The position numbers and the translations under genes were made by a program. From Larkinella rosea (GTDB taxonomy: Bacteria; Bacteroidota; Bacteroidia; Cytophagales; Spirosomataceae), in contig NZ_RQJO01000007.1 of assembly GCF_003858635.1 (NCBI RefSeq), forward strand, positions 993,941 through 1,057,940: DNA of 64,000 nt, written 5' to 3'. This document shows, piece by piece, positions 1-64,000 of this stretch. Under the pieces are notes generated by a model. The model did no database searches and had not been told where the DNA came from. It was given only the letters and a program-made list of their open reading frames with translations. Numbering within the stretch: the stretch's first letter is position 1; every line of letters begins with the position of its first letter.

Positions 1-441
1 GATTCGGATAATAAGCTCGTTCGGGAAGCCCTGCTCGAATCAATGGACGAACTGGAGAAAGAGTTGATGGTTAAACAGTATTGTTTTGAAAGCTGCCTGA
101 CCGGTTTTGAAGCCCTGGCATACCTGAAAGCGAGGAACGGCGCCGAACTGGTTTTTCAACCGAACCGGAAAAGCCGCGAAAACCGAAAAACCGCCCAATC
201 CGAAGAAACCGGGGGAAAATCCGGCTCGTCGCTTTACAAAGCGCTAACCAAATGGCGGGATGACCTGGCCGGAGAAAACGACACCGCTGGTTACATGGTT
301 TTGCCCCGAAAAACCATTCTCGAACTCGCCAAAACCCAGCCCTCCACGCTCGATGAATTATTGACCGTAAAAGGATTTGGAAAAACGAAGGTGAAGATGA
401 TTGGCGAGGACGTGCTCGCAATTATCCGAGCTTATAAATAG
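1..441 (+). CDS. C-terminal part of an HRDC-domain protein (probable helicase), 5' end outside window
   Basis: The reading frame is open from base 1, so this is the tail of a longer gene and the internal ATG at 43 is not its start. The last 75 or so residues form an HRDC domain, with the typical LYKALTKWRDDLA opening, a middle of the YMVLPRKTILELA type and a closing TVKGFGKTKVKMIGEDVLAII helix-hairpin-helix. HRDC domains bind nucleic acid and usually sit at the end of RecQ, PIF1-like or RNase D proteins. A charged Lys/Arg/Glu-rich linker precedes it. The visible upstream part does not look like the RecQ winged helix, so a PIF1-like helicase is my preferred guess, but this is inference. Confidence 0.75.
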   Translation, partial: DSDNKLVREALLESMDELEKELMVKQYCFESCLTGFEALAYLKARNGAELVFQPNRKSRENRKTAQSEETGGKSGSSLYKALTKWRDDLAGENDTAGYMVLPRKTILELAKTQPSTLDELLTVKGFGKTKVKMIGEDVLAIIRAYK

Positions 442-504
442 ACGATGGACCGCTGACGTTAGACAATAGATGAAGTTTATGACTATAGTCGATGGTCAAT
501 CGTC
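442..504. repeat. intergenic imperfect palindrome, GACGATGGAC-type units
   Basis: Right after the stop codon at 441, the arm 442-458 pairs imperfectly with 488-504 (about 14 of 17 positions). The spacer is AT-rich and holds similar short words (GTTAGAC, ACAATAG). It belongs to the class of gene-end palindromes seen elsewhere in this window and may end transcription between two convergent genes. Confidence 0.5.
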
Positions 505-518
505 AATTATCAAAGTCT

Positions 519-2708
519 TTACTCTCCCGGATGATACGTTTTTCCGACATGCTGGCGAATATCTTCGGGATAAAACCAAATATCTTTAAACTTTCCGGCG
601 CTAAATAAGGCTCCCTGATCGTTGAAATGCGGTGATGCCGGGTTGCTGCTGTGCCCGCCATTCACCACGGTTTTTGCCTTCACGCGCTCGCCAAATTCCA
701 CGACGGCTACAAAACTATTACCGACACTTCCGTAGCGTTTTTTGGTTCCCGGATACGTTCGTGCGCCAAAAGCCGCCAGTGAACCCCAGGTAGAAGGCAT
801 AAAACCGACGGCAAAACTCGGCTTCGAGTCGTCAAATGTCTCACTTATTTTTCCGGTCAGTCGCTGAAACCGGTTGATTTCACCCCAGGCGGTTTTCCAG
901 GTTCCAAAGTCACGCGTTAATTCGTCAACCACTTCGGTGAGCAACTTCACTTTCTCCTCCGGCGTCGTATTTTTAATCATAAAATCCGTAAAAGTCAGAA
1001 AATCAAACCGCTGGCCATTTGGCACCCGCTGCCGAGCCATTCGCAGGATTTTTTCTCCCCAAAAAACCGCCAGGGAAGTTGCCACCGAAGTCGCACCGTA
1101 ACACGTGTTCCAGTTCCGAAGCGTGTCGATCGCTTCGGCTAATGTTTTCAATTGCCCTTCCGGCTTTTCAGCCTGGGTTTGGTAGGCCTGCACCAAAGAT
1201 GGAATCAAGCCTTCAAAACCGGGCAGGTGTGGATCATTCGCGGCTGCAATCAAGGTGTCCAGCGTAAAATCAGTCTTTCGGCCCAACACACGAACCGCAT
1301 TCACGCCCCGGAAATTTTCCTCATCGGGTGCCATATAGGTGGGATACTGGCTTTTTGCCGGACTATTGGACCCCGCAACGGTAAATGGCGTCGAATTACA
1401 ATTCTGAAGCCAGCCATTGACCGGATTTTTTACCTGAACAATTTCATCAATAGCGTGCAGACCTTTCCAATCGGCCTCCGGATCGCTCCCGTCGACGGGC
1501 TGGCTCCAGTCAAATTTTGAATTTCGTTTCGGAACAAAATTGCCGTGCCAATACGCAATGGTACCATTCCGGTCAGCATAAACGGTGTTGTTAGTCGCGT
1601 TGCCGTTTAGTTTCATCACCTGTTTGTAACTCTCATAATCCTTCGCTTTCGTTCGGAGATACGATTGCGCCAACGCGTTCAACGGGTCATTCATCATGCT
1701 GATGGTAATCCACTGATCACCCAACTGGCCCGCTACCGGGCCGTGGTGTGTGCGGTAAATTGTAAATTCCTTCCGCTGCAACCCTTTGTCCGTTTTATAC
1801 GGCAGTGACACTTTTTCGGTCTTTACCAGACGCCACTCATTTCCGTGTTTGTAGTAATACGCACCGTTTCGCTTCTCAACCGTTTCCACGTATTCGTCCA
1901 TCGAATCGGCGTTACCGGAGGTGTGCATCCAGCCACAATTTTGATTAAAACCCTGATAAACAAAGAATTGCCCCCAGGTCACGGCACCGTAGGCATTCAA
2001 GCCCTTCTCACTCGTTACGTGAACCTCCGAGCGAAAATAAAACGACGTATGCGGATTGATCAGCAGCAGCGCATTTTTCGAAGCACTTTTGGACGGGGCA
2101 ATGGCAAAACCGTTTGAACCCGTGGGTTCGCGATCGTATTTATCGAAATCATTAACAACCGAGGTCCATTGGGTGTTCGTATAAAACGCCTTCAACCGCT
2201 CGGTCGAAATCACGCTGATGTTTCCTCCAATGCTCCCTTCACTAAACATCAGGGGCATCCAGGGCTGAAACCGGGTCAACAGCCGGGGTTTAATGTGTGG
2301 ATGGGAATAGAGGTAATAATTCGTCCCGTCGGCGAACGCATCCAGCAGGCTTTTCAGCCATTTCGGGCTTTTCCGATAAATCGCAATGGCCTGCGTTGTA
2401 TCCATGAAGAGTCGGGCTCTCAGATCGTGGTACAAAGCCGTTTCGCCATTAACTTCCGCCATTCGGCCAATCGCATCAATGTAATTTTCCTCCACTCGCG
2501 CAAAATCGTCTTCGCATTGGGTATACAACAACCCGAAAACCACATCGGCATCGGTTTTCCCGCTTATATGCGGAATATCCCAGGTGTCGCGCGCGATCGT
2601 AACGGTTTTGGCCCGTTTTTGCCAGCGCGCGATTTCATCCGGTCGAAAAGTTTGCGGTTTTGCAGAAAGAGCAGAAAAAAGGAAAGTCAGCAGAAAAAGT
2701 GATCTCAT
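519..2708 (-). CDS. penicillin acylase family protein (Ntn hydrolase), secreted
   Basis: A 729-residue member of the penicillin/acyl-homoserine-lactone acylase family, which cleave amide bonds using a serine exposed by autoproteolysis. The start at 2708 gives a clean signal peptide (MRSLFLLTFLFSALSAKPQ); the frame continues 38 codons upstream but without a signal. Near residue 198 the sequence TGSNGFAIAP marks the expected Gly|Ser processing point and nucleophile. The short alpha chain would precede it and the long beta chain follow. Downstream HTSFYFRSEVH and GNADSMDEY match family blocks. The substrate cannot be read from the sequence; N-acyl amino acids, lactones or beta-lactams are all possible. 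It converges on the HRDC gene and stands alone. Confidence 0.88.
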   Translation of the reverse strand: MRSLFLLTFLFSALSAKPQTFRPDEIARWQKRAKTVTIARDTWDIPHISGKTDADVVFGLLYTQCEDDFARVEENYIDAIGRMAEVNGETALYHDLRARLFMDTTQAIAIYRKSPKWLKSLLDAFADGTNYYLYSHPHIKPRLLTRFQPWMPLMFSEGSIGGNISVISTERLKAFYTNTQWTSVVNDFDKYDREPTGSNGFAIAPSKSASKNALLLINPHTSFYFRSEVHVTSEKGLNAYGAVTWGQFFVYQGFNQNCGWMHTSGNADSMDEYVETVEKRNGAYYYKHGNEWRLVKTEKVSLPYKTDKGLQRKEFTIYRTHHGPVAGQLGDQWITISMMNDPLNALAQSYLRTKAKDYESYKQVMKLNGNATNNTVYADRNGTIAYWHGNFVPKRNSKFDWSQPVDGSDPEADWKGLHAIDEIVQVKNPVNGWLQNCNSTPFTVAGSNSPAKSQYPTYMAPDEENFRGVNAVRVLGRKTDFTLDTLIAAANDPHLPGFEGLIPSLVQAYQTQAEKPEGQLKTLAEAIDTLRNWNTCYGATSVATSLAVFWGEKILRMARQRVPNGQRFDFLTFTDFMIKNTTPEEKVKLLTEVVDELTRDFGTWKTAWGEINRFQRLTGKISETFDDSKPSFAVGFMPSTWGSLAAFGARTYPGTKKRYGSVGNSFVAVVEFGERVKAKTVVNGGHSSNPASPHFNDQGALFSAGKFKDIWFYPEDIRQHVGKTYHPGE

Positions 2709-2806
2709 CGAAATGGCTGTATGCGTTCTTCGGTAAGATAACGCAAAAGCCAAAACCGGGCAACTACCCGGCACCAGTTTCTTGCTTTTCCTCCGTATCG
2801 GGCAAT

Positions 2807-2836
2807 AAAAAAAGCCAGACACTATTGTCCGGCTTT
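2807..2836 (-). terminator. Rho-independent terminator of trxA
   Basis: On the minus strand, an 11-bp stem (2811-2821 pairing with 2826-2836, one G-T type mismatch) with a four-base loop is followed by a run of seven T (2813-2807). It lies 28 bases after the thioredoxin stop and fits a standard intrinsic terminator. Confidence 0.8.
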
Positions 2837-2863
2837 ACCTGATATATCAAACCACTCCTGTGA

Positions 2864-3184
2864 TTACAGATGGGCGGCCAGTTTCTGTTCCAGAACGGAT
2901 TTGGCTACGGCGCCAATTACCTTATCGACCATTTTACCGTTTTTGAAAACCATCAAGGTCGGAATGCTGCGGATACCGAATTGAGCCGGAACCTGCGCGT
3001 TCATATCAACGTCCATTTTAGCGACAATCGCCTTGCCTTCGTATTCTCCTGCCAACTGTTCCACAGCCGGTCCGATCATTTTACAGGGTCCGCACCATTC
3101 GGCCCAAAAATCCACTAAAACCGGTTTATCGGAATTAATTACTTCCGCGAAGTTGGCGTCGGTTATTTCAATCGCTTTTGCCAT
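2864..3184 (-). CDS. trxA: thioredoxin
   Basis: A 106-residue classical thioredoxin. The active site WCGPCK places the redox cysteines at residues 31 and 34. The buried Asp (LVDFWAEW) and the cis-proline loop (IRSIPTLMVF) are both present. There is no signal peptide, so it is a cytosolic disulfide reductase. It ends in its own terminator and is separated from dnaE upstream by 73 bases. Confidence 0.97.
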   Translation of the reverse strand: MAKAIEITDANFAEVINSDKPVLVDFWAEWCGPCKMIGPAVEQLAGEYEGKAIVAKMDVDMNAQVPAQFGIRSIPTLMVFKNGKMVDKVIGAVAKSVLEQKLAAHL

Positions 3185-3257
3185 GATTGTATCTCGATTT
3201 TTGTCTATTTTAACTCTTATGTACGTACAATGTTTTGACGGAGAAAAAAGTTCATCA

Positions 3258-6200
3258 CTAATTCAATCGGTAGTCAACACCGTCCATGGCATCCAGCGCT
3301 TTCAGCAACTCGTTTACCGGCGAGATTTTGAACGGTCTGGATAGCATACTGACATTGACCCGATCTTCCTCATCCGTCACCTGCAGCACGAGGTTACACG
3401 AACCGGGATACGCTTTCACGAGGTCGGTCAACTTAAGGACAAACTCATTGTTAATCAGCTTTAATTCCATTTTCACATTGAGTTCCTTGCTGTATTTTGT
3501 CCGGACTTCCGTGAGCAATTGAATGAAATTCGGACGGAATTCAAAGGTATCTGAGTTCCAGCGGTTTTGCAGTTTTCCCTTGACATGCAGAAAGAGGCCC
3601 TCTTCGATGTAATTACCTAAACGCACAAAATCCTCCCCGAATAAACTCATTTCCACCGTACCGTTGTAATCCTCCAGTTTAAAAATCACAAACGGATTGC
3701 CGTTTTTCGACTGCCGGAGTTGCTTGCTTGTCACAATGCCGCCCACGGTTATTTCCCGGCCCTGATTCTCTTCATCAAATAACCGGTCCAGCGTACAGGT
3801 GCAGAAACTTTCCAGTTCAACCCGGAACTCGTCCAGCGGGTGACCGGAAATGTAGAAACCGACTACTTCTTTTTCGAATTTCAGCCGTTCAATTTCTCCC
3901 CAGTTCGGAACCTGCGGGGCTTTGGGCCGCGGAATACTCGGCTCTCCTCCCACTCCACCAAACAGGGATTGCTGCGCGGCCGACTTTTCGGCGTGGTAAT
4001 TATTGGCGTATTTCGTCAGTTTTTCAATAAATGCACCCGTTTCGCCCGGCGGCACATCAAAATACTGCGCCCGGTGGAAGTCGTCGATGTTATCAAACGC
4101 GCCGGCATACGCCAAAGATTCAAGCGTTTTTTTGTTGACTGTTCGCAGGTTAATCCGGATTACAAAATCGAATACATCCTTAAACGGACCGCCTTTTTTG
4201 CGTTCCTCGATAATGGATTCCACGGCGGCATCGCCGGTGCCTTTGATAGCGCCCAATCCAAAGCGAATTTCCCCTTTCTGGTTGACCCCAAAAAACCGCT
4301 CCGATTCGTTGACATCGGGACCTAAAACCGGAATTCCGATGGCTTTACACTCTTCCATGAAGAACGTAATCTTTTCGATGTTACCCAAACAGCTCGTCAA
4401 AACCGCAGCCATGTATTCGGCTTTGTAGTGCGTTTTCAGATAGGCCGTCTGGTAGGCCACAAAAGCGTAACAGGTCGAGTGGGATTTATTGAATGCGTAG
4501 GAAGCAAAGGCTTCCCAGTCGGTCCAGACTTTCTCGCAAGTCTTAAGATTCAATTTGTTAGCCGCGCAGCCGTCCATGAATTTGCCCTTCATTTTATCAA
4601 GCGTCGCACGGTCTTTTTTCCCCATTGCCTTCCGCAGGACGTCAGCATCTCCTTTTGTAAAATTGCCGAGTTTCTGGGAAAGCAGCATCAACTGTTCCTG
4701 GTAAACCGTAATACCGTAGGTATCGGCCAGGTACTCTTCCATTTCCGGCAAATCATACTTTACTTCCTCGCGTCCATGTTTCCGGTTAATGAAATTCGGG
4801 ATATAGGCAATTGGACCCGGACGGTACAGGGCATTCATGGCAATCAGGTCCTCAAACCGGTCGGGCTTAAGGTCCTTCATGTACTTTTTCATCCCGTCGG
4901 ATTCGAACTGGAAGATGGCGTTGGTTTCGCCCCGCTGGAAAGTCCGGTAGGTATCTTCGTCATCGAGCGGAATATCGTCAATGTCGGTTTCGACCCCATT
5001 GACTAACAAACCACCGTGGTTTTGCTTGATCAGCCGCAGGCTTTCCTTGATGATGGTCAGGTTTCGCAACCCCAGAAAGTCCATCTTGATAACCCCCGCA
5101 TCCTCAATGACTTTCCCTTCGTACTGCGTAATGATCAAATCCGATTCTTTCGAAGTCGAAACCGGAACGATGTTTGAAAGGTCTTCGGGTGCAATGATGA
5201 TCCCGGCTGCGTGAATCCCGGTGTTCCGAATGTTGCCTTCCAGTTTACGGGCTTGCTTCAATACCTTGGCTTGCAGATCGTTACCACCTTCAATTGCCCG
5301 CATTCGCTTAACATTCTCAACCTCCTCCGGCTGGATCATCTGGCCGAGCGATTCGATGGAGTCCTCAAAAATTTTCCGGAGGGTCATGTTATACGTCGGC
5401 TTGTCGGGTACGAGTTTCGCCAGCGCATTGGATTCGGGCAGTGGCAACTCCATGACCCGGGCAACATCCTTAATGGCCGATTTGGCCGCCATCGTGCCGT
5501 ACGTCACGATCTGGGCCACCTGCTGTTTGCCGTATTTTTTCACCACGTAATCGATCACTTTCTGCCGACCTTCGTCGTCAAAATCCGTATCAATATCGGG
5601 CATGGACTTCCGGTCAGGATTCAAAAACCGCTCGAACAGGAGGTTGTATTTGATCGGATCGATGTTCGTAATGCCAATGCAATAGGCCACCGCCGAACCA
5701 GCCGCCGAGCCCCGGCCGGGCCCCACCATCACGCCCAGATCACGCCCGGCTTTGATGAAATCCGATACGATGAGAAAGTACCCCGCAAACCCCATTTGCC
5801 GAATCACCCCGAGCTCAAAGCGTAAACGTTCGTCGGCTTCGGGCGTTAAAACGCGGTACCGTTGCCGCGCCCCTTCGAAGGTCAGAAATTCGAGGTAATC
5901 GTCCTGGGAGGCAAACCCGTCGGGAATGACGAAGTTCGGCAGCAAAATGTCACGCTTCAGTTTCAGTGTTTCAACCTTATCGACGATCTCGTTGGTATTG
6001 TCAATCGCTTCCGGTAAATCGCGGAACAGCGTTGACATTTCCTGGGTATTCTTAAAGTAAAACTGGTCACTAAAAAACGCAAACCGGGTGCCTTTCTTGA
6101 AGCCTTCCTCGTCATTAAATTCCTTTTCGGAGGGCGTACTCAGTTTTTCGTTCGTGTTGACACACAGCAGAATATCATGCGCCACCCAATCTTCCCGGTC

Positions 6201-6830
6201 TACATAATGCGAATCGTTGGAGGCAATGATTTTGACGTTGTATTTGCGGGCAAACTTCACCAACACTTCGTTGACCTTGATCTGATCGGGAATCTCATGG
6301 CGTTGCAGTTCGACGTAATAATCCTCGCCAAACCGATCGAGCCACCACTGAAACTCCTTTTCGCCCGCTTCTTCGCCTTTTTTCAGGATGGTTTTCGGAA
6401 CCGAAGCGCCAATGCAACACGTCGACGCAATCAGGCCTTCTTTATATTGATCGATCAGGGCTTTGGTGATCCGGGGATACTTCCCGTACAGACCTTCCAT
6501 GTACCCCAGCGAGCAAAGCTTGATCAGGTTTTTATAGCCCGTCGGATTTTTCGCCAACAGCAATTGGTGGTATCGAATGTCCTTTTGTTCCTTGGTAAAT
6601 TGCTTTTTGGTGTGGTCCTCTACGACGTAAAATTCGCAACCGACCACCGGTTTTATGCCCTGTTTGGCCGCTTCGGCTACAAACTCAAACACACCGAACA
6701 TGTTACCATGGTCCGTAATGGCGACGGCGGGCATATTGTCCGATTTGGCTTTCTTGATCAGCTTCTTGATCTCGGCCTGTCCGTCAAGCAGCGAGTATTG
6801 GGTGTGGCAATGGAGGTGGGAAAATTGCAT
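3258..6830 (-). CDS. dnaE: DNA polymerase III subunit alpha
   Basis: A replicative polymerase of 1190 residues, the usual DnaE1 size. The N-terminal PHP domain begins FSHLHCHTQYSLLDG and continues AITDHGNMFGVFEF. The C-family palm carries GPGRGSAAGSAVAYC and the catalytic PDIDTDF. Later blocks include NRKHGREE, a helix-hairpin-helix section (RINLRTVNKKTLESLAYAGAFD) and an OB-fold near residues 990-1070. The start at 6830 directly precedes the PHP motif. Upstream sequence shows only a weak -7-like TATTTTTA on the minus strand. Confidence 0.97.
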   Translation of the reverse strand: MQFSHLHCHTQYSLLDGQAEIKKLIKKAKSDNMPAVAITDHGNMFGVFEFVAEAAKQGIKPVVGCEFYVVEDHTKKQFTKEQKDIRYHQLLLAKNPTGYKNLIKLCSLGYMEGLYGKYPRITKALIDQYKEGLIASTCCIGASVPKTILKKGEEAGEKEFQWWLDRFGEDYYVELQRHEIPDQIKVNEVLVKFARKYNVKIIASNDSHYVDREDWVAHDILLCVNTNEKLSTPSEKEFNDEEGFKKGTRFAFFSDQFYFKNTQEMSTLFRDLPEAIDNTNEIVDKVETLKLKRDILLPNFVIPDGFASQDDYLEFLTFEGARQRYRVLTPEADERLRFELGVIRQMGFAGYFLIVSDFIKAGRDLGVMVGPGRGSAAGSAVAYCIGITNIDPIKYNLLFERFLNPDRKSMPDIDTDFDDEGRQKVIDYVVKKYGKQQVAQIVTYGTMAAKSAIKDVARVMELPLPESNALAKLVPDKPTYNMTLRKIFEDSIESLGQMIQPEEVENVKRMRAIEGGNDLQAKVLKQARKLEGNIRNTGIHAAGIIIAPEDLSNIVPVSTSKESDLIITQYEGKVIEDAGVIKMDFLGLRNLTIIKESLRLIKQNHGGLLVNGVETDIDDIPLDDEDTYRTFQRGETNAIFQFESDGMKKYMKDLKPDRFEDLIAMNALYRPGPIAYIPNFINRKHGREEVKYDLPEMEEYLADTYGITVYQEQLMLLSQKLGNFTKGDADVLRKAMGKKDRATLDKMKGKFMDGCAANKLNLKTCEKVWTDWEAFASYAFNKSHSTCYAFVAYQTAYLKTHYKAEYMAAVLTSCLGNIEKITFFMEECKAIGIPVLGPDVNESERFFGVNQKGEIRFGLGAIKGTGDAAVESIIEERKKGGPFKDVFDFVIRINLRTVNKKTLESLAYAGAFDNIDDFHRAQYFDVPPGETGAFIEKLTKYANNYHAEKSAAQQSLFGGVGGEPSIPRPKAPQVPNWGEIERLKFEKEVVGFYISGHPLDEFRVELESFCTCTLDRLFDEENQGREITVGGIVTSKQLRQSKNGNPFVIFKLEDYNGTVEMSLFGEDFVRLGNYIEEGLFLHVKGKLQNRWNSDTFEFRPNFIQLLTEVRTKYSKELNVKMELKLINNEFVLKLTDLVKAYPGSCNLVLQVTDEEDRVNVSMLSRPFKISPVNELLKALDAMDGVDYRLN

Positions 6831-6925
6831 CCTGCTGGTTTTTCAGAAAATTACTAAGCTAAAAATAAGACTTTCAGACGAGCTTATTCGGATTTAGCGG
6901 TAGAATATTTACGTCAATCTGATTG

Positions 6926-7488
6926 TCAGCGGCTTAGAAAATAGAGCTTAAATTCATTCAATTCCTGTTCTTTCAATTCAATATATTTTCCGAACAACTT
7001 CTCACCAACTTGCTTTTTCAGGGCCGATATCCCGACGTCGATCAGCTGTTACCCGTTATCCGTCAGCAGAATATTATCCTGTTTTTCTCCGCTTCCGAAC
7101 CAAATATCCGACCGGGTATCGCCCGGAAGAAACTTGGCGCGCTCGGTTTCTGATAAAGTCACAACGAAGTTGATCGCGCCCTGCGGGGCGTTGGTTGGGC
7201 TACCGTTTCTGCACCCTATTCCTTGATACGGTGGACACATACATGGCTCTGATTGCATTAATTCAACATGCGCGAAACCGGGATGTGCAGGATTCAGAGG
7301 ACGATGGCGGACGGCGCTTTTAAAACAGCCAATTGGGCTGTCTGTAGCCAATGATCGCCAATTTGCTGGCAGATTATGTGTTGGTGATAATCAAATCAAT
7401 TGACAGGCAACGCCTTGATGGGTATTGTTTCCATCTTTAAACGATCATACCAAAGAAATTTGTCAACGAGTTCTTCGAAATACCTCCC
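6926..7488 (-). pseudogene. decayed region: RES-domain toxin remnant followed by an interrupted hypothetical ORF
   Basis: Two broken pieces are readable on the minus strand. From about 7488 to 7280, a frame gives EELVDKFLWYDRLK, then KALPVN, a TGA where RES proteins usually have the Trp of a PVNW-like motif, then QQIGDHWLQTAQLAVLKAPS. After a frameshift near 7285 it resumes as LNPAHPGFAHVEL. IGDxWL..LKxPSA..LNPAHP is the signature of RES toxins, which degrade NAD+ and pair with Xre antitoxins. The N-terminal half and any antitoxin are missing. From about 7240 to 7052 a second frame (GDTRSDIWFGSGEKQDN) hits an in-frame TAA at 7049-7051 and then continues in frame for 40 codons to a TGA at 6926-6928; I do not recognise it. 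Confidence 0.65.
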
Positions 7489-7491
7489 GAT

Positions 7492-8295
7492 TCAATTCCT
7501 TCCCTTCTTCGCGTTCACCCAATCCTGCTGAAAAGTAATCATAATAGACTCATAATCAGACACTGGATAGTTGACCAGCATGTTTTTAGCTTCCCGACTC
7601 ATGGGCAGGTAAACCAGTCCCCGAACCGACTGGCCGGGTTGGAGAGTGGTCGGTTTCAGGGATAGTTCTTTCCAGCGATAGGCCTCATAATCATACCGCT
7701 GCATCCGATCGGCGAACAAACCATGGTCGATCATGCGTTTGGCCTGAATGGCGGAATAAATGTTATTGTGCGTAATGCGGTTTTGAACCCAACGCTCGGG
7801 CCGTTGATTGCTCCGTGACGAAGAGGAGGCCACATCGCTGGCGACGGCGGCCACCAGCAAAACCGTGTTAATAACTTTGGCCCGCTTAATTCGCTTTACT
7901 TCCCGTTCCTGATTGTAACCCGTTTGATCGGCCTCCCGGATTGGATCTGCCGCCGAAAACATCAGCGGTTTCTGGGGAGAACTGTTGGTGATAAAAACCG
8001 TATGCTGGTCTTTATCCAGCGCCGTGTATTGAAAATCCGCCGGATTGACATCAAACGGGTGATCGGTTTTGTTTTTTACCTCAATATCCAGTGCCACATA
8101 TTGCAAATCCAGGCGCTCGAACGAAGCCACCACCACAATTCCGTCCTGCTCCGCTTTCGTTATCGACCGGCCATCGATCTGAGCTACCTCGCCGGAAACC
8201 GGTTTGAGTTGATAAACTTTGGTCGCACAACCACCTAAACCGGTCAGTGCCGCAACGCAAACCCACAAAGTCAGTATATTTTTTCCCGATTTCAT
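7492..8295 (-). CDS. putative lipoprotein of unknown function
   Basis: 267 residues with a lipoprotein signal: positive n-region, hydrophobic core and lipobox LGGC with the acylated Cys near residue 23. The mature part has a beta-rich section (residues 50-120), a short hydrophobic stretch near residue 145 (INTVLLVAAVASDVA) followed by a Ser/Arg-rich segment, and a C-terminal section resembling the DUF4352-like or late competence type beta folds (LQPGQSVRGLVYLP). I do not recognise a named family. It is probably attached to the periplasmic face of the outer membrane. The decayed RES region begins immediately after its stop. Confidence 0.7.
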   Translation of the reverse strand: MKSGKNILTLWVCVAALTGLGGCATKVYQLKPVSGEVAQIDGRSITKAEQDGIVVVASFERLDLQYVALDIEVKNKTDHPFDVNPADFQYTALDKDQHTVFITNSSPQKPLMFSAADPIREADQTGYNQEREVKRIKRAKVINTVLLVAAVASDVASSSSRSNQRPERWVQNRITHNNIYSAIQAKRMIDHGLFADRMQRYDYEAYRWKELSLKPTTLQPGQSVRGLVYLPMSREAKNMLVNYPVSDYESIMITFQQDWVNAKKGRN

Positions 8296-8385
8296 ACCAT
8301 CATTTGTTTGATTATTCGAAGATACTTTTCTCTTTAACCAAAATCAACTATTTAGTGAGGAACGAGCTGGATGCAGTATAAGCGA

Positions 8386-9579
8386 CTAATTGAACAAGCT
8401 TTGCACGGCCAGCCATACATTCCAGCCCCCAAAAATCAGCGAAACCACGACCACCAGCAACATCGCCAGATTTTGCGACAGTGAATTTCGAAAACCGTCC
8501 GGAATTAGTTTGCGATCATTAACTGCCAGAAACAGAAAAATGGTGACGACGGGCAGTAAAATACCGTTGATGGCCTGAACAATTACAATGATTTTCACCG
8601 GGTTATAATCAGATAAACCGAACGCCAGTCCAACGGCCAACACGCCAATCCAAACCAGGCGATAGGTCCACGAACGCTCGGACCATCCCAGCAAACTTTT
8701 TCCGGTGATGGCAGCCGCCAGCGGAGCCGTCAGCGAAGACGCAAACCCGGCTGCAAACAAGCCAAACGCAAACAGCAAACCGCCCCAGGCACCCACCCGC
8801 TCGCTGAGCACAGCCGCCATGTTGGGATACGTAAAACCACCCGTAATGAGCAAACCCGCGATCAGCAGCACCACCGAGATGAAGCCCCCCAGCAAAACCG
8901 CAATCCAGACGCCTAATCGCATTTCGGAAAGGGTTTGTCCCTGCGTAATGCCTGATCCAAAAAACAGGTTATACGGTACAATCGTGGTGCCAATCAGGCT
9001 GTTAATGAGCAGCAAGGACCCCGCCGGGTAGGAAGGAACAACCAGCGCTTTCGCCACCTCGATGGCCGGAGGAGATGCACCAAAGGCCACGTAAACAAAT
9101 GCGCCACCCATGGCGAACACAATGATTCCCAAAAAGTTAGCAATCCACTGGGTCGATCCAATGGCCAGCAAAATGATGCAAACGGCTCCCACGCCAATGG
9201 TCAGCCAGCGCGCTGACCAGCCCGTCAGCAGGGACAAACCCGAAACCGCTCCCAGAATGTTACCAGCCTGGTATGCAGCGCAACCAAATGTTACTGCGAA
9301 AAACAGCAGATACGGAACGGTTTTGCCTCGTTTCTGATTTGCCAGGGCAATGGTTTGCCCTAAATCCCGGCCAGTGGCGATGGTGATGCGGGAGGCAGCT
9401 TCCTGGAGCCAGACCGTCCCGAAGGTCGCGAAAGTGAGCACCCAGAGCAATTGCAGACCAAACTGCGCGCCCGCCATGGCACAGGCCGTAACGGAACCAG
9501 GGCCGATGAAAGCCGCCGAAATAACGGACCAGAACAAAATACTGCCAAGTCCGGAACGAATGGAAAGTGATTTGGGCAC
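8386..9579 (-). CDS. Nramp-family transporter with non-canonical metal-site motifs
   Basis: About 397 residues with 10-11 predicted transmembrane segments; LQLLWVL, LQEAASRI and ATGRDLGQ are Nramp family blocks. Canonical TM1 has DPGN and TM6 has MPHN, which bind Mn/Fe. Here TM1 reads FIGPGSVTA and TM6 reads TTIVPYNLFF, so the metal-binding Asp, Asn, Met and His are all replaced. This suggests a different substrate, as in the Nramp-related Mg transporters, or another ion. I chose the GTG at 9579 (VPKSLSIRSG): the earlier GTG at 9615 would start inside a long inverted repeat. The gene follows the oxoprolinase gene on the same strand. Confidence 0.82.
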   Translation of the reverse strand: MPKSLSIRSGLGSILFWSVISAAFIGPGSVTACAMAGAQFGLQLLWVLTFATFGTVWLQEAASRITIATGRDLGQTIALANQKRGKTVPYLLFFAVTFGCAAYQAGNILGAVSGLSLLTGWSARWLTIGVGAVCIILLAIGSTQWIANFLGIIVFAMGGAFVYVAFGASPPAIEVAKALVVPSYPAGSLLLINSLIGTTIVPYNLFFGSGITQGQTLSEMRLGVWIAVLLGGFISVVLLIAGLLITGGFTYPNMAAVLSERVGAWGGLLFAFGLFAAGFASSLTAPLAAAITGKSLLGWSERSWTYRLVWIGVLAVGLAFGLSDYNPVKIIVIVQAINGILLPVVTIFLFLAVNDRKLIPDGFRNSLSQNLAMLLVVVVSLIFGGWNVWLAVQSLFN

Positions 9580-9608
9580 GGAGTAAGAGTTAAGAGATTT
9601 ATAAGATA

Positions 9609-9679
9609 GGAACACGGATTGAACGGATGCAACGGATTTTAACTGATTTTATCCGTTGCATCCGTTCAATCCGTGTTCC
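9609..9679. repeat. perfect 29-bp inverted repeat made of ACGGAT units
   Basis: Arm 9609-9637 is the exact reverse complement of 9651-9679, with a 13-base loop. Each arm is built of repeated 8-9-base units containing ACGGAT. It starts two bases beyond the stop of the oxoprolinase gene and ends just before the Nramp gene, so it could end or attenuate transcription between them, although no T-run follows. Confidence 0.9.
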
Positions 9680-9681
9680 CA

Positions 9682-12600
9682 TCAGCACGATTCATTCGCA
9701 ACAGGTTTTCCAAAACCACCCCCGCCCGGCGTTTCGATTCGGATTCGTTCCCCGGCCTGCATGACCCGGGTAAAAATTCCGGGCAAGGTAGTTTCGGAAC
9801 CATCGACGGCCAGCAGCGTTTGTTGACCAATTTGTCCAGGTTCACCGCCTTCCAAGCCATACGGAGCTTCGATCCGGTGTTGACTGAGTAATGTAGCCTG
9901 AACGGGTTCCAGAAATTCGATTTCCCGCACAATGCCGTCGCCACCCGGCCACTTTCCGGTCCCGCCCGAACCAGTCCGAATCGCAAACTGGTGGAGACGA
10001 ACCGGATAACGACACTCCAGTTCCTCAGGATCAGTGAGTTTTGTATTGGTCATGTGCTGGTGCACCGCCGACCGACCGGCAAAACCGGGTCCGGCACCCA
10101 CGCCACCACCAATGGTTTCGTAATAGCCAAACGCCCGATCGGCTTCTCCCGACCTTCCGAACAAAAAATTATTCATCGTTCCCTGACTGCCAGCCGCTAA
10201 CCCCAGTGCCTTCAACAACGTATCGACCAGCCGCTGACTTACTTCCGTATTACCGCCCACCACCGCCGGGCATTCGGCCGGATCGTCCGAAAAAACCGGG
10301 TTCAGAAAACATTCCGGCAACACAATGGAAACCGGAGCCATCAGTCCTTCATTCAGTGGAATATCCTGATCACACCAAAGCCGCAAAACGTACAAAACCG
10401 CACTATATAGAATCGACAGATTGGCGTTCAAATTGTAGGGATGAACGGGCGACGTACCTGTAAAATCGAACGTAATTTCCTGATTTTCAATGGAAATTGT
10501 AACACAAATCCGGTGCCCATCATCCAGCGACTCCTGAGCCGAAAACGTTTTTCCATTCGATTGATGTAAAACCGGTTTTAAGGAGTTGGTAGCAGCTTGT
10601 TTCAACCGCTGCATGTAGTGCCGAACTGTTGGCAAGCCATACTGCCGAACCAGTTCCTGCAAGGCGGTTTCGCCCGACCGAAGCGATGCCAGTGCAGCCT
10701 CAATATCGGCCCGGTTTTCGGCCAGCGCGCGGGTTGGGTAAGCCGTTTCTACAAAGCGTTTTTGTACTTCCTCCCACAAAAAAATGCCATTTTTGACCAG
10801 ATACTGCGGTTCCAGCACCACGCCTTCTTCAACGAGCCGCGTAGCATCGGGCGGCATCGAACCCGGAACTTTGCCACCAATTTCGGCGTGATGGGCGCGG
10901 TTCACCACGTACCCAATGCGTTCGCCCGAGTTGGTAAAAACGCCGGAAATCAGCGTTACATCGGGCAAATGCGAACCGCCGTATTTAGGATGGTTCGTGA
11001 TCACAACGTCGCCCGGCCCAATCGCTATTTTTGCCAGTACCAGGCGGGTACAAATTCCCAGACTTCCTAAATGCACCGGAATATGCGGGGCATTGACCAG
11101 CAGTTCGGCATTTTCGTCGAGCAAGGCACAGGAAAAGTCCAGTCGTTCCTTGACGTTCACGGAAAAAGCCGTTCGCTGCAATTGCGCACCCATTTCTTCC
11201 GCAATGGCCACAAACCGCCGGGCAAACAGCTCCGTTTGAGCGGCTTCCAACCGGGGCTCGTCGGCGGTTTGTGGTTCACCGATAAACCGGGCAACGGCAT
11301 TGCGACCCTTGTCAATCATCATTTGCCAACCCGTTTCCAGAAAACCGGAGGACGTTTTATTCAGTACCAAAGCCGGCCCTTCCAGCGAATCACCTTCAGA
11401 CAACTTTTCCCATTCATAAACCGGAATTTGTCCCGCAAAAAAAGAAGGTTTGGCTTTATCCACCGTTTCGATTGCGGCAATGCCGGCTTGGTTTACGGTA
11501 TGGTTGTTGACCAGTACGCGAATACTCTCCACCTCAATCGTTCGGTTGGCCGGATAATGACCGTAAAGTTGTAGATACCGGTCCCGGAAGCGAACCTCCA
11601 CCTCCTGCGCGACGTAAGGAATTTCAATCGTGCTTTCCTGTCCCTGCAACCGCGTGAATAACAGCACATTTTGCACATTTACAGGCGCAATCTCACCAAT
11701 ATCCAGCCGCAATTCGGCTGTTGCTTTAGCGATCAGTTCATCGATCCACGTGCTCAGATCAGTTTCAATATCGGCTAATGGTTTCAGAACCTGTAGCGAA
11801 GCAATCCGTTCTACGCGGGCCTGTCCGATGCCATAGGCACTCAGCAAACCGCCATCGAATGGGAAAATAAGGGTTTGTATACCCAACAACTTCGCCACTG
11901 CACAGCCGTGAAGTCCACCGGCACCGCCAAAAACCAGCAAGGCATACTCTTTCGGATCAAAACCACGCGCAACCGAGATTTTGCGGATCGCTCCGGACAT
12001 TGTTTCGTTGGCAATTCGCTCAAATCCCAACAGTAAATCGTCCTCTTCAAGCTTTTGTCCCGTCTGGCGTTCGACCTGTTGATGAACTAATTGCAATGCT
12101 GCCGTTGCCTTTTCCAGGCTGACCGGAATCCCGAATAGGGCCGGATGCAATCGGCCCAGTAACAGATTGACGTCGGTGATGGTCAGCGGTCCTCCAGCGC
12201 CGTAACAGGCTGGGCCGGGCGAAGCACCGGCACTTTGGGGCCCCACCCGGAGCTGCTGACCGTCGAACCAGCACACCGAACCGCCACCGGCCGCCACGGT
12301 TTCCACCGCCAGCGATGGCGATTGCAATTCGAACGACCCTACTCTCGTTTTGAATTGATAATCAACCCGTTGATCGAACCGGGCGACGTCCGTGCTGGTC
12401 CCGCCCATATCGAGGGTAAGTGTGCGGTTAACGCCCAGAACACGAGCCACCTGCCCCGCTCCAATGACCCCGCCCGCCGGACCGCTCAACAAACTGTCTT
12501 TGGGCCGAAACAATTCAGCTTTCACCAAACCGCCCCCGCTGGTCATTACCCGAACAGGATTGCCGCCCAGTTGATGGGTCAGATTGTCCAGATAGGTTCG

Positions 12601-13428: not shown

Positions 13429-13529
13429 CCTGTATCCCTGGACCAGCGGTTGGCCCCATTGAGTCCGTGTTTTGTTATGTATTTTTTGCTTTGAACCAAC
13501 ACGGATAAAATCCATGTGTTATCAGTGCC

Positions 13530-16052: not shown

Positions 16053-16231
16053 CGATCGGGAGCGTTCGCGTGAATAACAAAAATAGTCAGCCTGACCCAA
16101 CGAATTGCTACTTAGGGAAGTGCATTTTGAATTATAGCGGTATTTTTTTTGCTCCATTAAAATAGCCACAGTTTTTCCCTAAAAAATCTATCAAAAGCCC
16201 TTTCGCGATTTTCAATTGCTATCATTCCAAT

Positions 16232-19089: not shown

Positions 19090-19113
19090 AATCTATTAGC
19101 ATTAAAACCGGTC

Positions 19114-23853: not shown

Positions 23854-23943
23854 TTTTCGTTTAGTTTTAGGAATACGAGTACCTATTTGAGACGTTTTTT
23901 TGTCAAAAAGTAACACGATCCCGAAAAGAAAACGTATCCGGTT

Positions 23944-26022
23944 TTACCACCGCACCGCCAGCTTCACTCCTCCCGTGATGTTCCGGCGCGGAGCGGCATT
24001 GTAATAGCGTCCGCCGAGGGCATTGAGGTCGTAGCCCAGGCTGTAGGTCTGGTCCAGCAGGTTGTCGCCACTGACGTACGCATCCAGTGCCCAATGTTTG
24101 CCGAGAGATTTCCGGAATCCGAGGGTTGCGTTCAGCATCCGGGCGATGTCGGACTTCACGGTATTGGCATCATCCAGCGGAAACTGATCGATGAATTGAT
24201 GTGTCGCGTGTGCGTACAAACCGACGCGCGTTTCGGCATCCAGTCCGGTTGAGACCACCAGCGGAGGCACGCCCGTTACCCGGTTTCCCGACGCATCCAC
24301 GGCGCCCTGCTGGTAATTCTTAAACCGGTAATTCGTAGCCGTCGTGCTGTTCCAGACCCGAACGGATTGCCAGAAACCGCCCGGTTTGGGAACCACGAGG
24401 TTATACGCCAACTGAACTTCCAGCCCTTTTTGATTGGTGGCTCCGGCATTGATGAAATATTCGGCTCCGCTTACCACCGATCGACGCACAATGGTCTGGC
24501 GCAGCCGAAACTGATAAGCCGCCACGTCGAACTGAAACCGGCTCAATTGCCCCCGCAAACCCACTTCCAGGTTGGTTCCTTTTTCTGGTTCCAGCGTCGA
24601 ATTGAACGTCCCCTCCGACGGCCGGACTTCCTGAATCGTTGGCGCCGAATAACCGGTGCTGATGCTCGCAAAAACTGAAACATATTCGCCGAGTTTCTTT
24701 AACAAAGCCACCCGTGGCAACCAAACTGGCTGAAAAGCACGCGGTTGAGCCACGATGGGCAGCACCGAAAACCGGGTAAAACCGTACGCAACCTCGTTTC
24801 GGCTTAGACCGGCGGTGGCAATGATTCCCAGCGGCAGCGTAGCTTCCAGTTGGGCAAAAATGACCGACTGCGACGCCCGAAGTTCGTCGTCAGCCTGGAG
24901 GGTATCGGGATTGCCCCGGCGATTGCCGTAGTTGCGGTCGACGGTGAAATTCTGCTGGTATTCGCCCCCGAAAACCAGTTGCGTCGGAACACCTTCTTCA
25001 ATCATCTGCCAGCGCGTAACCGTCCGTGCCCCTATTCCCTGATCGGCCCGTTTTTCGTAATTGGTAATGAACGGGTTATAGAAATCGGTGGTAGAACCAA
25101 AAATTACGGTGGTGTTCTGAATCCGGCTGTTCCAGCGGTATTGGTGTGAAAAACCCAGGTAACCGGTTTTTTGGTAAATACCCGCGTGCTGATCAACGCT
25201 GCCCGCGATGGCCGGGGTCGACGGACGTGCATTTCGTGGATTCGCTAAAAATTGAGTCCGGTTCAAACCGCCGGGCGTTTGGTACATCAGATCGGTATAC
25301 AGCCCCATCACCGAGACGGTTTGTTTCTCGTTCACGGCAAACGTTCCGCTTACCGACAGATTATCGCGGTACATCCGGCTGTTCTGACGATACCCGTCGG
25401 ATTGTAAATGACCGTAATTCAACGAAATAGCCGAGTTGTTTTTTCCCGTTTGAAACGAATAATTCTGGCCCGACAAACCGTATGCACCAGCCAGCGCTCC
25501 CACTTCAGCACGATTGGCCACTTCACCGCCTGAATTGGTCGGACCGGATAGCAAAACCGCTCCGCCCGTTCCGGCCCCGTATAAACTGCCCGAAGGACCT
25601 TTGATGACTTCCACCCGGCCAATCGACCGCACATCCAGCGCGTTCAGGTATGTAGTTCCACCCGCATCGGTGAGCGGTAATTCGTGCCAGTAAATCTTCA
25701 CATTCCGCACCCCAAACGGTGAACGAATCAGGCTACCCCGAATCGAAAGCCGGTAACTTCCGGGCGACCGTTCGTCCATCCGTACTCCCGGCAGGGTGTT
25801 AAATGCGGGGACAAGCGACGGTGTACCAAACCGCTGGGTCAGATCTTTCGCAGACAGCACATTCACCGAAGATGCGGTTTCGAGCAACGGCCGATTGGTT
25901 TCAAACCCCCGAACGGTTACTTCCGCCAGTTGAACGGAATCGGCCACCGAACGGCTGACAACTGGCTGCTGGGCATAGAGCGAAATTGGAACCAGAAGAA
26001 AGAGGAAACTGTATTTAGTCAT
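23944..26022 (-). CDS. TonB-dependent outer-membrane receptor
   Basis: 692 residues with a signal peptide (MTKYSFLFLLVPISLYAQ). A plug domain (residues about 45-160) includes LPGVRMDERSPGSYRLSIRG and GRVEVIKGPSGSLYGAGTGG, followed by a beta-barrel that ends in an aromatic-rich C-terminus (GGVKLAVRW). It lacks the carboxypeptidase-like N-terminal domain of SusC proteins and has no SusD partner, so it resembles a siderophore or metal-chelate receptor. It ends 91 bases from the DUF4332 start and no obvious regulator adjoins it. Confidence 0.9.
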   Translation of the reverse strand: MTKYSFLFLLVPISLYAQQPVVSRSVADSVQLAEVTVRGFETNRPLLETASSVNVLSAKDLTQRFGTPSLVPAFNTLPGVRMDERSPGSYRLSIRGSLIRSPFGVRNVKIYWHELPLTDAGGTTYLNALDVRSIGRVEVIKGPSGSLYGAGTGGAVLLSGPTNSGGEVANRAEVGALAGAYGLSGQNYSFQTGKNNSAISLNYGHLQSDGYRQNSRMYRDNLSVSGTFAVNEKQTVSVMGLYTDLMYQTPGGLNRTQFLANPRNARPSTPAIAGSVDQHAGIYQKTGYLGFSHQYRWNSRIQNTTVIFGSTTDFYNPFITNYEKRADQGIGARTVTRWQMIEEGVPTQLVFGGEYQQNFTVDRNYGNRRGNPDTLQADDELRASQSVIFAQLEATLPLGIIATAGLSRNEVAYGFTRFSVLPIVAQPRAFQPVWLPRVALLKKLGEYVSVFASISTGYSAPTIQEVRPSEGTFNSTLEPEKGTNLEVGLRGQLSRFQFDVAAYQFRLRQTIVRRSVVSGAEYFINAGATNQKGLEVQLAYNLVVPKPGGFWQSVRVWNSTTATNYRFKNYQQGAVDASGNRVTGVPPLVVSTGLDAETRVGLYAHATHQFIDQFPLDDANTVKSDIARMLNATLGFRKSLGKHWALDAYVSGDNLLDQTYSLGYDLNALGGRYYNAAPRRNITGGVKLAVRW

Positions 26023-26202
26023 GTTTTAACTTGGTTCAGGGAATTTTCAGTAAAACTAAGCGCCCAAAACGATTTTATACTCTTTAGCATCAACTAACCT
26101 CAATTCAACCCCAAAAGTGCGCGTTTCAATCAAGTCTGTATTGAGCGAACGGTTTTATACCACTTATTTTACCAAAAAATTATTATCCCCATTGTAAAGT
26201 AC

Positions 26203-30846: not shown

Positions 30847-30926
30847 GTACTGGGGTTACGAGTTAAGATCGGAAAAAGGCACGAAGAAGGCACTAGAAGA
30901 AAAACCGGTCTTCCAGCGGGCTTCTT

Positions 30927-35444: not shown

Positions 35445-35470
35445 CCCTCAAAACACGGCGGTTTTGAGGG
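35445..35470 (-). terminator. terminator of the aconitase gene
   Basis: CCCTCAAAAC (35445-35454) pairs perfectly with GTTTTGAGGG (35461-35470); the minus-strand transcript then runs into TTTT. It lies 25 bases after the aconitase stop. Confidence 0.7.
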
Positions 35471-38734: not shown

Positions 38735-38801
38735 GTGCAAAACCGTTTTTAGCCCCTATTTAATAGCTTTTGTTTACATATTTTTAATTTGGGTTACAAA
38801 T

Positions 38802-40553: not shown

Positions 40554-40948
40554 GAATGTAATCCAAACGGATTACTGCATTGCGGCAACATAGGCATTTT
40601 ACGATGGAATTACATGCATTAATTTATTTCTTTTGTCTTTATGCCCGAATTAATCCCGGATTTGGTTCCTTTCCTGTCTGGTAACCCGCCGGATGCATCC
40701 GGTTTAAAACCGTCAACGACTGGCAATTGCCATGTTTTCAGACGCTCGTTGCCGGTTCGCCCACTCATCATTTATACCTATGCATTCGGAACGATTCAGG
40801 CCCAAAAATCGTTATCAAATAACAAAAAGTACCCGCCCAACCATCATTCCCTCGAATGGATTTGTAAGTATTACGTCTTTTGCATCTATATTTGGCACGA
40901 GACGTGGGACAGACTGTCGGTACTAATTAACAATCAACCTGAATCTAT
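40554..40948. other. 395-base intergenic region upstream of topA
   Basis: No coding sequence is convincing here. It separates the divergent membrane protein and topA and holds one AAAACCG word (40706) and the topA promoter candidate near its right end. A plus-strand open frame crossing into topA lacks family features and is regarded as chance. Confidence 0.6.
40861..40894 (+). promoter_or_regulatory. promoter of topA
   Basis: TTTG at 40861-40864 and TATATTTG at 40887-40894 match both boxes of the Bacteroidota primary sigma consensus (TTTG, 19-22 bases, TAnnTTTG). Spacing is 22 bases, and the start codon lies 54 bases further on. Confidence 0.6.
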
Positions 40949-63063: not shown

Positions 63064-63203
63064 TTTCACGGATTCCGGAGCGAATTCGTCGGTCTTCATG
63101 TCCAAGTTACACATTTAAAAGGGTCTGCCTGAGCGGATGAACCGGTTTTGGTTACAAATTTCGAAACTACTGGAAAAATGAAAACAAATCCTTTAATTTA
63201 CCC

Positions 63204-63211
63204 TATTTTTG
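63204..63211 (+). promoter_or_regulatory. candidate -7 box of the second GH13 gene
   Basis: TATTTTTG in the divergent spacer, 27 bases before the ATG at 63239. No TTG lies at the usual -33 spacing. Confidence 0.4.
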
Positions 63212-63238
63212 GCAGCTTTCTTATCCAGGCTAACCGTT

Positions 63239-64000
63239 ATGAAACGTTCCATTTACTTCCTGATCCTGCTGTTCTCCGTTGTTTTTTTCAGGACCCTGGC
63301 GCAAACCGCATCCATCCGGCGCGTCGATCCGACAAATTGGTGGGTGGGCCTGAAAAACCCCCGTTTGCAGTTACTGGTTTACGGGCCAAAAGCCGGTTCG
63401 ATGACGTACACAATCCAGTATCCCGGCGTCAAACTGCTGAAAACAACAAAGGCTGAAAACCCGGATTTTGCCTTTCTGGATTTACAGATTTTCCCAACGG
63501 CAAAACCGGGTACATTTCTGATTAGCGGCAAACTGGGCAGTCAAACCGTTTCGCATTCGTACGAACTAAAAGCCCGCACAACCGGCCCAAAAGCACAGGG
63601 CGTTTCAGCCGCCGATTTTATTTACCTGATCATGCCTGACCGTTTCGCCAACGGCGACCCGGCCAACGATGCTTTTCCCGATATGCTCGATACAAAAGTC
63701 GACCGGTCGATTCCCCACCTACGGCACGGTGGTGATTTACAAGGCATTACCAACCACCTGGATTACTTGCAGGAATTGGGGGTAACGGCGGTCTGGATGA
63801 CGCCGGTTTTGGTCAATGACGAAACGTTAAAGCAGGAAGCGCCCGACCGAATGCAGGCGGGGTATCACGGCTACCACTTTACGGACCATTACCAGATCGA
63901 CAAGCGGTTTGGTGGCAACGATGCCTACCGAAAATTCGCCCAAACACTGCACCAACGCGGCATGAAGCTGGTGCAGGATGCGGTTTATAACCATGTCAGC
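63239..64000 (+). CDS. GH13 cyclomaltodextrinase/neopullulanase-like enzyme, 3' end outside window
   Basis: 254 codons, open to the window edge, starting ATG at 63239 with a signal peptide (MKRSIYFLILLFSVVFFRTLAQ). The N-terminal domain is of the cyclomaltodextrinase type (PTNWWVGLKNPRLQLLVYG, VKLLKTTKAENPDFAFLDL), as in SusA. The GH13 barrel begins DFIYLIMPDRFANGDPAND and reaches region I at DAVYNHVS at the very end. It is expected to act on maltodextrins together with the divergent amylase. The catalytic Asp and Glu lie outside the window. Confidence 0.92.
   Translation, partial: MKRSIYFLILLFSVVFFRTLAQTASIRRVDPTNWWVGLKNPRLQLLVYGPKAGSMTYTIQYPGVKLLKTTKAENPDFAFLDLQIFPTAKPGTFLISGKLGSQTVSHSYELKARTTGPKAQGVSAADFIYLIMPDRFANGDPANDAFPDMLDTKVDRSIPHLRHGGDLQGITNHLDYLQELGVTAVWMTPVLVNDETLKQEAPDRMQAGYHGYHFTDHYQIDKRFGGNDAYRKFAQTLHQRGMKLVQDAVYNHVS

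Follow-up and report, generated by a model that had tools for sequence, protein, structure and literature searches.

What sustains a seven-base word that recurs every few hundred bases through the genes and spacers of a bacterial chromosome? The question is raised by a 64,000-base stretch of the Larkinella rosea genome (contig NZ_RQJO01000007.1, positions 993,941 to 1,057,940), referred to here as the window, in which a preliminary description made from the letters alone had reported AAAACCG as highly iterated, with about 139 copies (77 on one strand and 62 on the other). A full count confirms this, with 142 copies in the window (78 on the plus strand and 64 on the minus strand), or one per 451 bases. 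The genome of 8,174,678 bases holds 19,544 copies (9,738 forward and 9,806 reverse), or one per 418 bases, and the reversed control word GCCAAAA occurs there 1,501 times forward and 1,483 times in reverse. The proposed likeness in density to HIP1 (highly iterated palindrome 1) or to uptake words therefore holds at both scales. Throughout, genomes are coded G, genera g and sampled loci L, with G000 being the window's own genome, and open reading frames (ORFs) are those that a simple longest-ORF rule predicts. We regard it as well established that AAAACCG is over-represented at the level of DNA, on both strands, in genes and spacers alike and without a link to replication direction; that, on the two sets of branches with better support, gain of the word exceeds and loss of it falls short of what neutral codons predict; that peptides able to encode the word are enriched in the densest genomes; that an integrase island lacks the excess; and that some relatives carry other words. 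Our leading explanation, held tentatively and with somewhat less than even confidence, is that AAAACCG, weakly extended, is the form taken in Larkinella by a recognition word that is specific to each lineage, lies in double-stranded chromosomal DNA and is served by a putative reader machine.

The size of the excess depends on the null model. The 18-fold figure first proposed stands only against equal base frequencies (128,000/16,384, or 7.8 copies expected in the window) and falls to 5.4-fold when a first-order Markov model built on the window is the null (26.3 expected). For a 464 kb sample of G000, comprising the window and 20 sampled stretches of 20 kb, a second-order model predicts 324 copies where 974 are present (3.0-fold, z 36), placing AAAACCG at the top of all 7-mers. 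Two runs of synonymous codon shuffling within genes give 233 and 236 copies where 826 are observed (3.5-fold, z 38-39). The preliminary description had allowed that shuffles or similar words might prove equally frequent; they do not, since AAAACCG also ranks first among all 7-mers of the sample by codon shuffle. As had been noticed from the letters, copies lie in all six phases and in spacers; each phase is enriched (2.0- to 7.1-fold by codon shuffle), and the spacers of the 464 kb sample hold 135 copies against 24 expected at order 1 or 43 at order 2. Pooled over six Larkinella genomes, the density is 1.90/kb in coding sequence and 1.88/kb in spacers. An RNA-level signal was ruled out, since the word exceeds expectation more strongly in antisense than in sense and spacers share the enrichment. 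The iteration is real, and the size of its excess is corrected downward from 18-fold.

The excess is found nearly everywhere that G000 was sampled. The 20 sampled stretches and the window's first 60 kb make up 23 blocks of 20 kb, and 22 of these have 2.15- to 5.2-fold enrichment by gene shuffle. The exception, L017, has four copies in 20 kb (1.5-fold by gene shuffle, 0.66-fold by pooled codon usage). Positions 1644-18154 of this block form an integrase-linked island without AAAACCG excess, and its genes (a C5 methyltransferase, HATPase, Z1, DUF4420 (PD-(D/E)XK) and AIPR, with a phage-type integrase alongside) are a defence-like set. A second word, CATCGAC, is also enriched in the window and L002-L021 (192 copies against 57 at order 2; 177 against 75 by codon shuffle), with a z far below that of AAAACCG.

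AAAACCG is non-palindromic, and its one-step neighbours stay near background (0.65- to 2.4-fold against codon shuffles), the first A being the least strict position. The flanks carry slight preferences: on the 3' side the first base tends not to be A and the second not to be G, and C is somewhat favoured immediately before the word. Enrichment rises to 7.5-fold for AAAACCGCT and 5.9-fold for CAAAACCGC, and AAAACCGC (4.7-fold) is at least as enriched as AAAACCGG (3.9-fold). The palindromic AACCGGTT occurs 26 times in the window, which is under its maximum-order expectation of 33.5 yet 5.8-fold over order 1. Gaps between neighbouring copies, in statistics that leave out L017 and L002, are near random (coefficient of variation 1.05), and neighbours closer than 50 bp are scarce (116 against 171 expected). 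No favoured distance or orientation between neighbours stood out. With flanks only weakly biased and no preferred spacing or orientation of pairs, a longer consensus or a second half-site was rejected. Along genes the word is distributed flatly beyond the first 30 nt, in which its excess is reduced.

Replication direction has no detectable influence on the word. G001 is the sole Larkinella genome in one contig, and 25 stretches of 20 kb were sampled from it with the G-rich strand taken as leading. By GC skew, 233 copies lie on the leading and 245 on the lagging strand (p 0.61); with the origin set at dnaA, the numbers are 247 and 231. In the 23 blocks of G000, the division by GC skew is 461 to 502 (p 0.20). 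Replichore polarity was accordingly rejected, whether judged by the skew of each stretch or with the origin at dnaA, in line with the earlier judgement that the strand ratio is too even for a polar marker. AAAACCG shares genome-wide iteration with FtsK-orienting polar sequences (KOPS) and architecture-imparting sequences (AIMS); unlike these it is strand-symmetric, with no polarity towards ter, and is therefore not a polar word of that type. The skew of G001 also provides a side observation. In its stretches L126-L130 and L151-L170, the sign flips near 2.0-2.3 Mb and 4.9-5.3 Mb and not at dnaA (3.61 Mb). Since the skew does not turn there, dnaA probably does not mark the replication origin in this genome.

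The taxonomic range of the word is narrow. G000 was placed in Larkinella because its RecA is 96% identical to that of Larkinella sp. C7, whose recA locus (21 kb) holds 43 copies of AAAACCG. When 222 genomes of the family were counted, all nine Larkinella genomes had 776-2,391 copies/Mb, and the other 213, from 35 genera, reached a maximum of about 627/Mb. AAAACCG is genus-wide and genus-specific to Larkinella, and the suggestion that it might extend to Spirosomaceae at large is not borne out. Within the genus, density drops with topoisomerase I identity to G000, from about 2,370-2,390/Mb in G000 and G004 through 1,531-1,770/Mb in G003, G007, G002 and G006 to 976-1,099/Mb in G005 and G001 and 776/Mb in G008. 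In syntenic samples, G+C climbs from 0.50 to 0.57 as the density falls; since it rises along the same direction, codon-shuffle ratios are the fairer measure of the gradient. These run from 3.5- and 3.75-fold through 2.8- to 3.3-fold to 2.3- to 2.4-fold, with G008 at 2.4-fold. By codon shuffle, AAAACCG leads all 7-mers in seven of the nine Larkinella samples and comes second and fifth in the remaining two; in eleven non-Larkinella samples or pools it ranks from 170 to 5,572.

Some relatives carry different iterated words, which are dialect-like, newly found here and unforeseen in the preliminary description. The non-Larkinella samples span 40-168 kb, often taken from the end of a single contig, and their 7-mers were ranked by codon shuffle; named loci were pooled by genus, with many left out of the word ranking and L197 (5.9 kb of G182) unused. 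By this measure ACGTACC occurs 94 times against 18-20 expected in G128 (g20), AAGTACC 104 times against 13-14 in G164 (g36), and ACGTAGC, in g5, 101 times against 14 in G204 and 42 against 7 in G222. Five pooled Pontibacter loci yield AAGTATA (57 against 15) and AGGTATA (61 against 18), and weaker words emerge from G071 (g18; z 10.5) and from the pooled loci of Dyadobacter (z 9.3) and Algoriphagus (z 8.0). No 7-mer exceeded z 7.7 in the samples of G012, G010, G133, G168, G057, G135, G191, G130, G066, G227, G011, Rufibacter, Hymenobacter, Siphonobacter and Roseivirga, or in the Fibrella, Telluribacter/Siphonobacter and Runella/Flectobacillus/Arcicella pools; the top word of the Fibrella pool was again ACGTACC (20 against 5). 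A blank small sample is not proof of absence, since G133 shows words genome-wide despite its own blank sample.

Whole-genome counts over the same 222 family genomes map these words more closely. GGTACGT occurs 8,209, 7,042 and 8,083 times in three g20 genomes and 1,784 and 1,845 times in the other two, and 3,368 and 3,713 times in the g21 genomes. In g5 it reaches 5,462 in G204 and 2,190-3,294 in G193, G210, G220 and G222, and the other 31 of its 36 genomes have 530-1,758. GCTACGT is most frequent in G204 (10,552), followed by G220 (6,259), G222 (5,198), G193 (4,845), G210 (2,476) and G206 (2,112); the other g5 genomes have 553-1,621 copies and the g21 genomes 3,237 and 3,135. GGTACTT occurs 15,982 times in G164, 5,106 times in G160 and 3,024-3,781 times in G011, G224 and G225. 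Counted by genus, the relatives with other words are three of the five genomes in g20, both in g21 and five of the 36 in g5, along with G164. The words of G164, G128 and G204 share the frame A-[A/C]-GTA-[C/G]-C. Because AAAACCG fits this frame poorly, a single reader common to all of the dialect words can only be hypothesized.

How the word is gained and lost was followed in the orthologous codons of 46 window genes, aligned to the eight other Larkinella genomes. In the sampled coding sequence of G000, 826 of the 1,762 positions whose amino acids permit AAAACCG (47%) carry it. The test was polarised, using sites at which outgroups agree on the ancestral state and the amino acids are unchanged. 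Controls were the 160 commonest 7-mers of the window genes minus 30 (AAAACCG and others holding AACCG or AAACC), leaving 130; words with at least five expected losses were ranked for loss (69, 60 and 17 words in the three clades) and words with at least 50 sites for gain (130, 130 and 127). On the G000/G004 branches, AAAACCG was lost at 12 of 70 sites against 39.7 predicted from codon rates (ratio 0.30; pooled controls 0.73) and gained at 27 of 111 (0.243; controls 0.069). On the G002/G003/G007 branches, losses numbered 15 of 92 against 45.6 predicted (0.33; controls 0.77) and gains 11 of 97 (0.113; controls 0.060). The implied strength, expressed as ln(gain/loss shift), is 2.1 for G000/G004, 1.5 for G002/G003/G007 and 0.8 for G001/G005, which is also the order of word density. 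With 34 multi-base gains set aside, sixteen gains were made in a single step; they fall on five positions, 10 being transversions and 6 transitions. A stricter one-step count leaves 6 gains, of which 2 are transitions, and this spectrum was discarded as too sparse for reading mutation chemistry.

Protein sequences point partly the same way. Compared with one residue shuffle per genome, peptides able to encode AAAACCG are enriched 1.40-fold in G000, 1.37-fold in G004 and 1.25-fold in both G003 and G008; the mean over seven non-Larkinella samples is 1.08 (standard deviation 0.085). Similarly, peptides able to encode the word of G204 stand at 1.50 in that genome, whereas eleven other samples average 0.93. 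Where the word is densest, protein sequences are bent towards AAAACCG, and the proteome agrees in part with the test of gain and loss. Since gain is raised, loss is lowered and protein contexts are altered, one-way mutation bias is disfavoured, and weak selection or drive acting on DNA appears to favour the word.

A recognition word would behave in this manner if a putative cell machine read AAAACCG wherever it is located, on either strand, and if DNA bearing it gained a small transmission advantage. The machine that we favour would recognise self-DNA during uptake and homologous recombination, and the biased transfer of AAAACCG-bearing alleles would constitute a molecular drive. Uptake or self-recognition is favoured because it fits the strand symmetry, the dialects, the wordless relatives and the deficit in the island; as an identification of the machine it is a possibility that we hold with considerable reserve. 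The main alternatives for the machine are a Chi-type stop signal for an AddAB-like nuclease and a methylation-linked repair system. On a broader scale, the words may belong to an undescribed, fast-changing identity system in Cytophagales, a suggestion to which we would give a little less than an even chance. A putative shared DNA-reading machine of changing specificity would have each lineage write its own 7-9 bp word every few hundred bases, even bending proteins, with many relatives having none. Its dialects could tentatively be listed as AAAACCG in Larkinella, ACGTACC in three g20 genomes and g21, ACGTAGC in some g5 genomes and g21, AAGTACC in G164 and perhaps CARGTATA in the Pontibacter sample.

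Genome-wide identity words are textbook material in Neisseriaceae, Pasteurellaceae and cyanobacteria. A limited open-access search found no genome-wide word of this kind described in the phylum of Larkinella, which is not proof of unpublished status, and a limited literature search likewise bore out the statement that no function is described for AAAACCG. The Larkinella word and the other words in neighbouring genera open a new phylum for such identity words. Close relatives that have a word, lack one or have a different one form a natural replicate set, in which the origin and readers of identity words become testable by species comparison. AAAACCG resembles the DNA uptake sequences (DUS) of Neisseriaceae and the uptake signal sequences (USS) of Pasteurellaceae in having thousands of copies, being non-palindromic and lying on both strands. 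The words differ in size, with those found here being 7-9 bp long and about 3-8 fold over codon shuffles, whereas DUS and USS are 10-12 bp long. Another likeness is the presence of dialects among relatives, some of which are wordless; PMC3630211 describes eight variants of DUS in Neisseriaceae.

Several results weigh against a recognition word of this kind, or limit the evidence for it. Uptake words of Pasteurellaceae are biased to gene ends according to PMC2346458; unlike DUS and USS, AAAACCG has no excess at gene ends by quintile ratios over 546 genes, no excess of the inverted spacer pairs that serve such words as terminators (9 within 40 bp against about 7.8 expected) and no excess in spacers over genes. 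In a first pairwise test of G000 against G004, the word was kept at 253 of 289 codon positions against 192 expected (z +7.9). This comparison overstated conservation, as retention is ordinary once the occupancy of permissive sites is allowed for (residuals of -0.9 and -0.6 standard deviations); the argument from conserved sites to selection was dropped, and the polarised test was relied on for this reason. Within the polarised test, the effect is not clear in G001/G005, where 17 of 51 sites were lost against 24.9 predicted (controls 0.80) and 5 of 49 gained (controls 0.055). Individual control words match or beat AAAACCG even in G000/G004 (3 of 69 by loss, 1 of 130 by gain), and at least six do so by loss and by gain in each of the other two clades. 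Binomial p values scaled to the controls (1e-5 for loss and 7e-9 for gain in G000/G004, 4e-6 and 0.03 in G002/G003/G007, 0.25 and 0.13 in G001/G005) are rough, because tips within one clade share history and are not independent. Synonymous sites are also far diverged among the Larkinella genomes compared, with codon identities of 0.48-0.83. At the protein level, AAAACCG-permissive peptides in G001 (1.14) are not separate from the non-Larkinella samples, and G128 (1.19) and G164 (1.16) show little enrichment of peptides for their own words.

Among the rival explanations, a Chi-like word survives best, although we consider it rather doubtful. An AddAB-type helicase-nuclease would read the word on a single strand, stop degrading and start RecA-dependent repair, and selection would keep enough copies on each strand. 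Like the Chi sites of RecBCD and AddAB, AAAACCG is short, oriented, non-palindromic, dense and lineage-specific, and one island lacks its excess. The enzyme may also be at hand, for an ORF of 985-1,199 amino acids with a PDDEXK_1 domain (PF12705), AddB-like by domain and size, is present in all 20 genomes tested. The same AddB-like nuclease is found, however, in G012, G191, G066 and G227, whose samples gave no strong word. Known Chi sites have a leading-strand bias, which AAAACCG lacks in both G001 and G000. The words also differ between close relatives, and a change of word between species of one genus, as in g5 and g20, would be unusual for Chi.

A methylation-linked word, as proposed for HIP1, is less probable and in our estimate unlikely. 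An orphan methyltransferase would mark AAAACCG, and a linked repair process would create and maintain the copies. HIP1 lies in genes and spacers, as AAAACCG does. Patchy words would fit a horizontally moved enzyme, and the combination of higher gain with lower loss would fit biased repair. AAAACCG is non-palindromic, however, unlike HIP1, and the palindromic AACCGGTT falls below its maximum-order expectation. Eco57I-type methyltransferases are a class that reads non-palindromic words; none is common to the nine Larkinella genomes, as G001 has no match even though it carries AAAACCG, and this class was rejected as a genus-wide cause. In favour of the comparison, PMC4390886 gives 1,000 to 2,000 instances per million nucleotides for HIP1 and alternate HIPs, a density per Mb like that of AAAACCG, and has alternate words in some lineages.

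We think it improbable that AAAACCG is where a protein organising the nucleoid or chromosome binds, with weak selection for even packing maintaining the copies. Strand symmetry, near-random spacing, the deficit of neighbours closer than 50 bp, equal density in genes and spacers, and the A-tract half of the word would all suit such a protein. No fixed spacing between neighbours was seen, however, and differing words in close relatives are hard to reconcile with a conserved architectural protein. Slightly more improbable again is that a bias of mutation or repair, dependent on context and without benefit, left the word as its imprint. Gains are raised, the word is lineage-specific and its density follows phylogeny, as an imprint would have it; against this, two of the three clades show 0.30 and 0.33 of the losses that codons predict, the few single-step gains are mixed in type, no one-step neighbour has been emptied, and protein contexts are enriched. 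The list of candidates in the preliminary description is narrowed in consequence: the one-way mutation imprint is disfavoured because two of the three clades have lowered loss as well, and polar Chi and KOPS readings are weakened. Plain codon usage, codon pairs or base composition has next to no chance of explaining the word, for although many of its component codons are common, this account was ruled out by the second-order model and the codon shuffles, fails the six-phase and spacer tests, and does not explain why AAAACCG is high only in Larkinella among 36 genera.

A second word, treated as separate from AAAACCG because their taxonomic ranges differ, is nearly absent from Larkinella. GMGGCG (CGCCKC) has 10 copies in 1.69 Mb, all of them in L002, L019, L160, L167 and L168, with 5 copies of CGCCGC against 1,485 expected from a third-order model and 5 of CGCCTC against 467; the window (1-64000) has none. 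On the coding strands of G000, one shuffle gives 171 copies of CGCCGC where none is found and 131 of GCGGCG where there is one. Because both are all but missing from coding strands, the avoidance affects both strands. One-step neighbours outside GMGGCG stay within 0.43- to 1.40-fold, and the exclusion is for this reason sharp, no single neighbour having absorbed the loss. Larkinella genomes have 7-73 copies of CGCCTC each, against 3,330-4,792 of the reversed control word. CGCCTC is similarly low in both g21 genomes, all four g3 genomes and 33 of 36 g5 genomes (at most 78; in G199, 1 against 2,261), higher in the g5 genomes G193 (147), G203 (205) and the incomplete G215 (426), and within about two-fold of the control elsewhere in the family. 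CGCCGC, counted in samples only, numbers 0 against 57 in G012, 0 against 88 in G010 and 2 against 52 in G133. The avoidance of GMGGCG looks like the shadow of a putative sequence-specific nuclease from which the host had little or no protection.

Other avoided words were encountered in the same surveys. G128 (g20; L186-L190) avoids GACGCC (1 against 59-63), CGCCGC (0 against 58-59) and AGCGCC (3 against 50-53); CGCCTC is common there, and ACGTACG is absent against 17 expected. CTGAAG and CTCCAG are strongly avoided in G071 (L191-L193; 1 against 30-32 and 0 against 25-29, respectively) and in the Dyadobacter loci (17 against 116 and 18 against 71). In the pooled Larkinella sequence (1.69 Mb), the palindromes GCCGGC, CCGCGG, GGATCC and GGGCCC occur about 2.6- to 4.3-fold less often than expected, which by analogy resembles ordinary restriction-site avoidance.

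Within the window itself, 10 of the 142 copies of AAAACCG lie in spacers or cross ORF edges, and predicted ORFs contain the other 132, which occupy all six phases. The first copy (102..108, minus strand) and that at 179..185 (plus strand) are both inside ORF 43-441, and the densest 2 kb, with nine copies, is near 801-2800. Spacer copies are located on the plus strand at 19104..19110, 30901..30907, 40706..40712 and 63502..63508, the third of these being upstream of the topoisomerase I ORF (40949-43537), and on the minus strand at 26150..26156, 35459..35465 and 63804..63810. Copies crossing an ORF edge occur at 23939..23945 (minus strand), 38739..38745 (plus strand) and 63143..63149 (minus strand). 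The largest gap between copies extends for 3,145 bases from position 48571.

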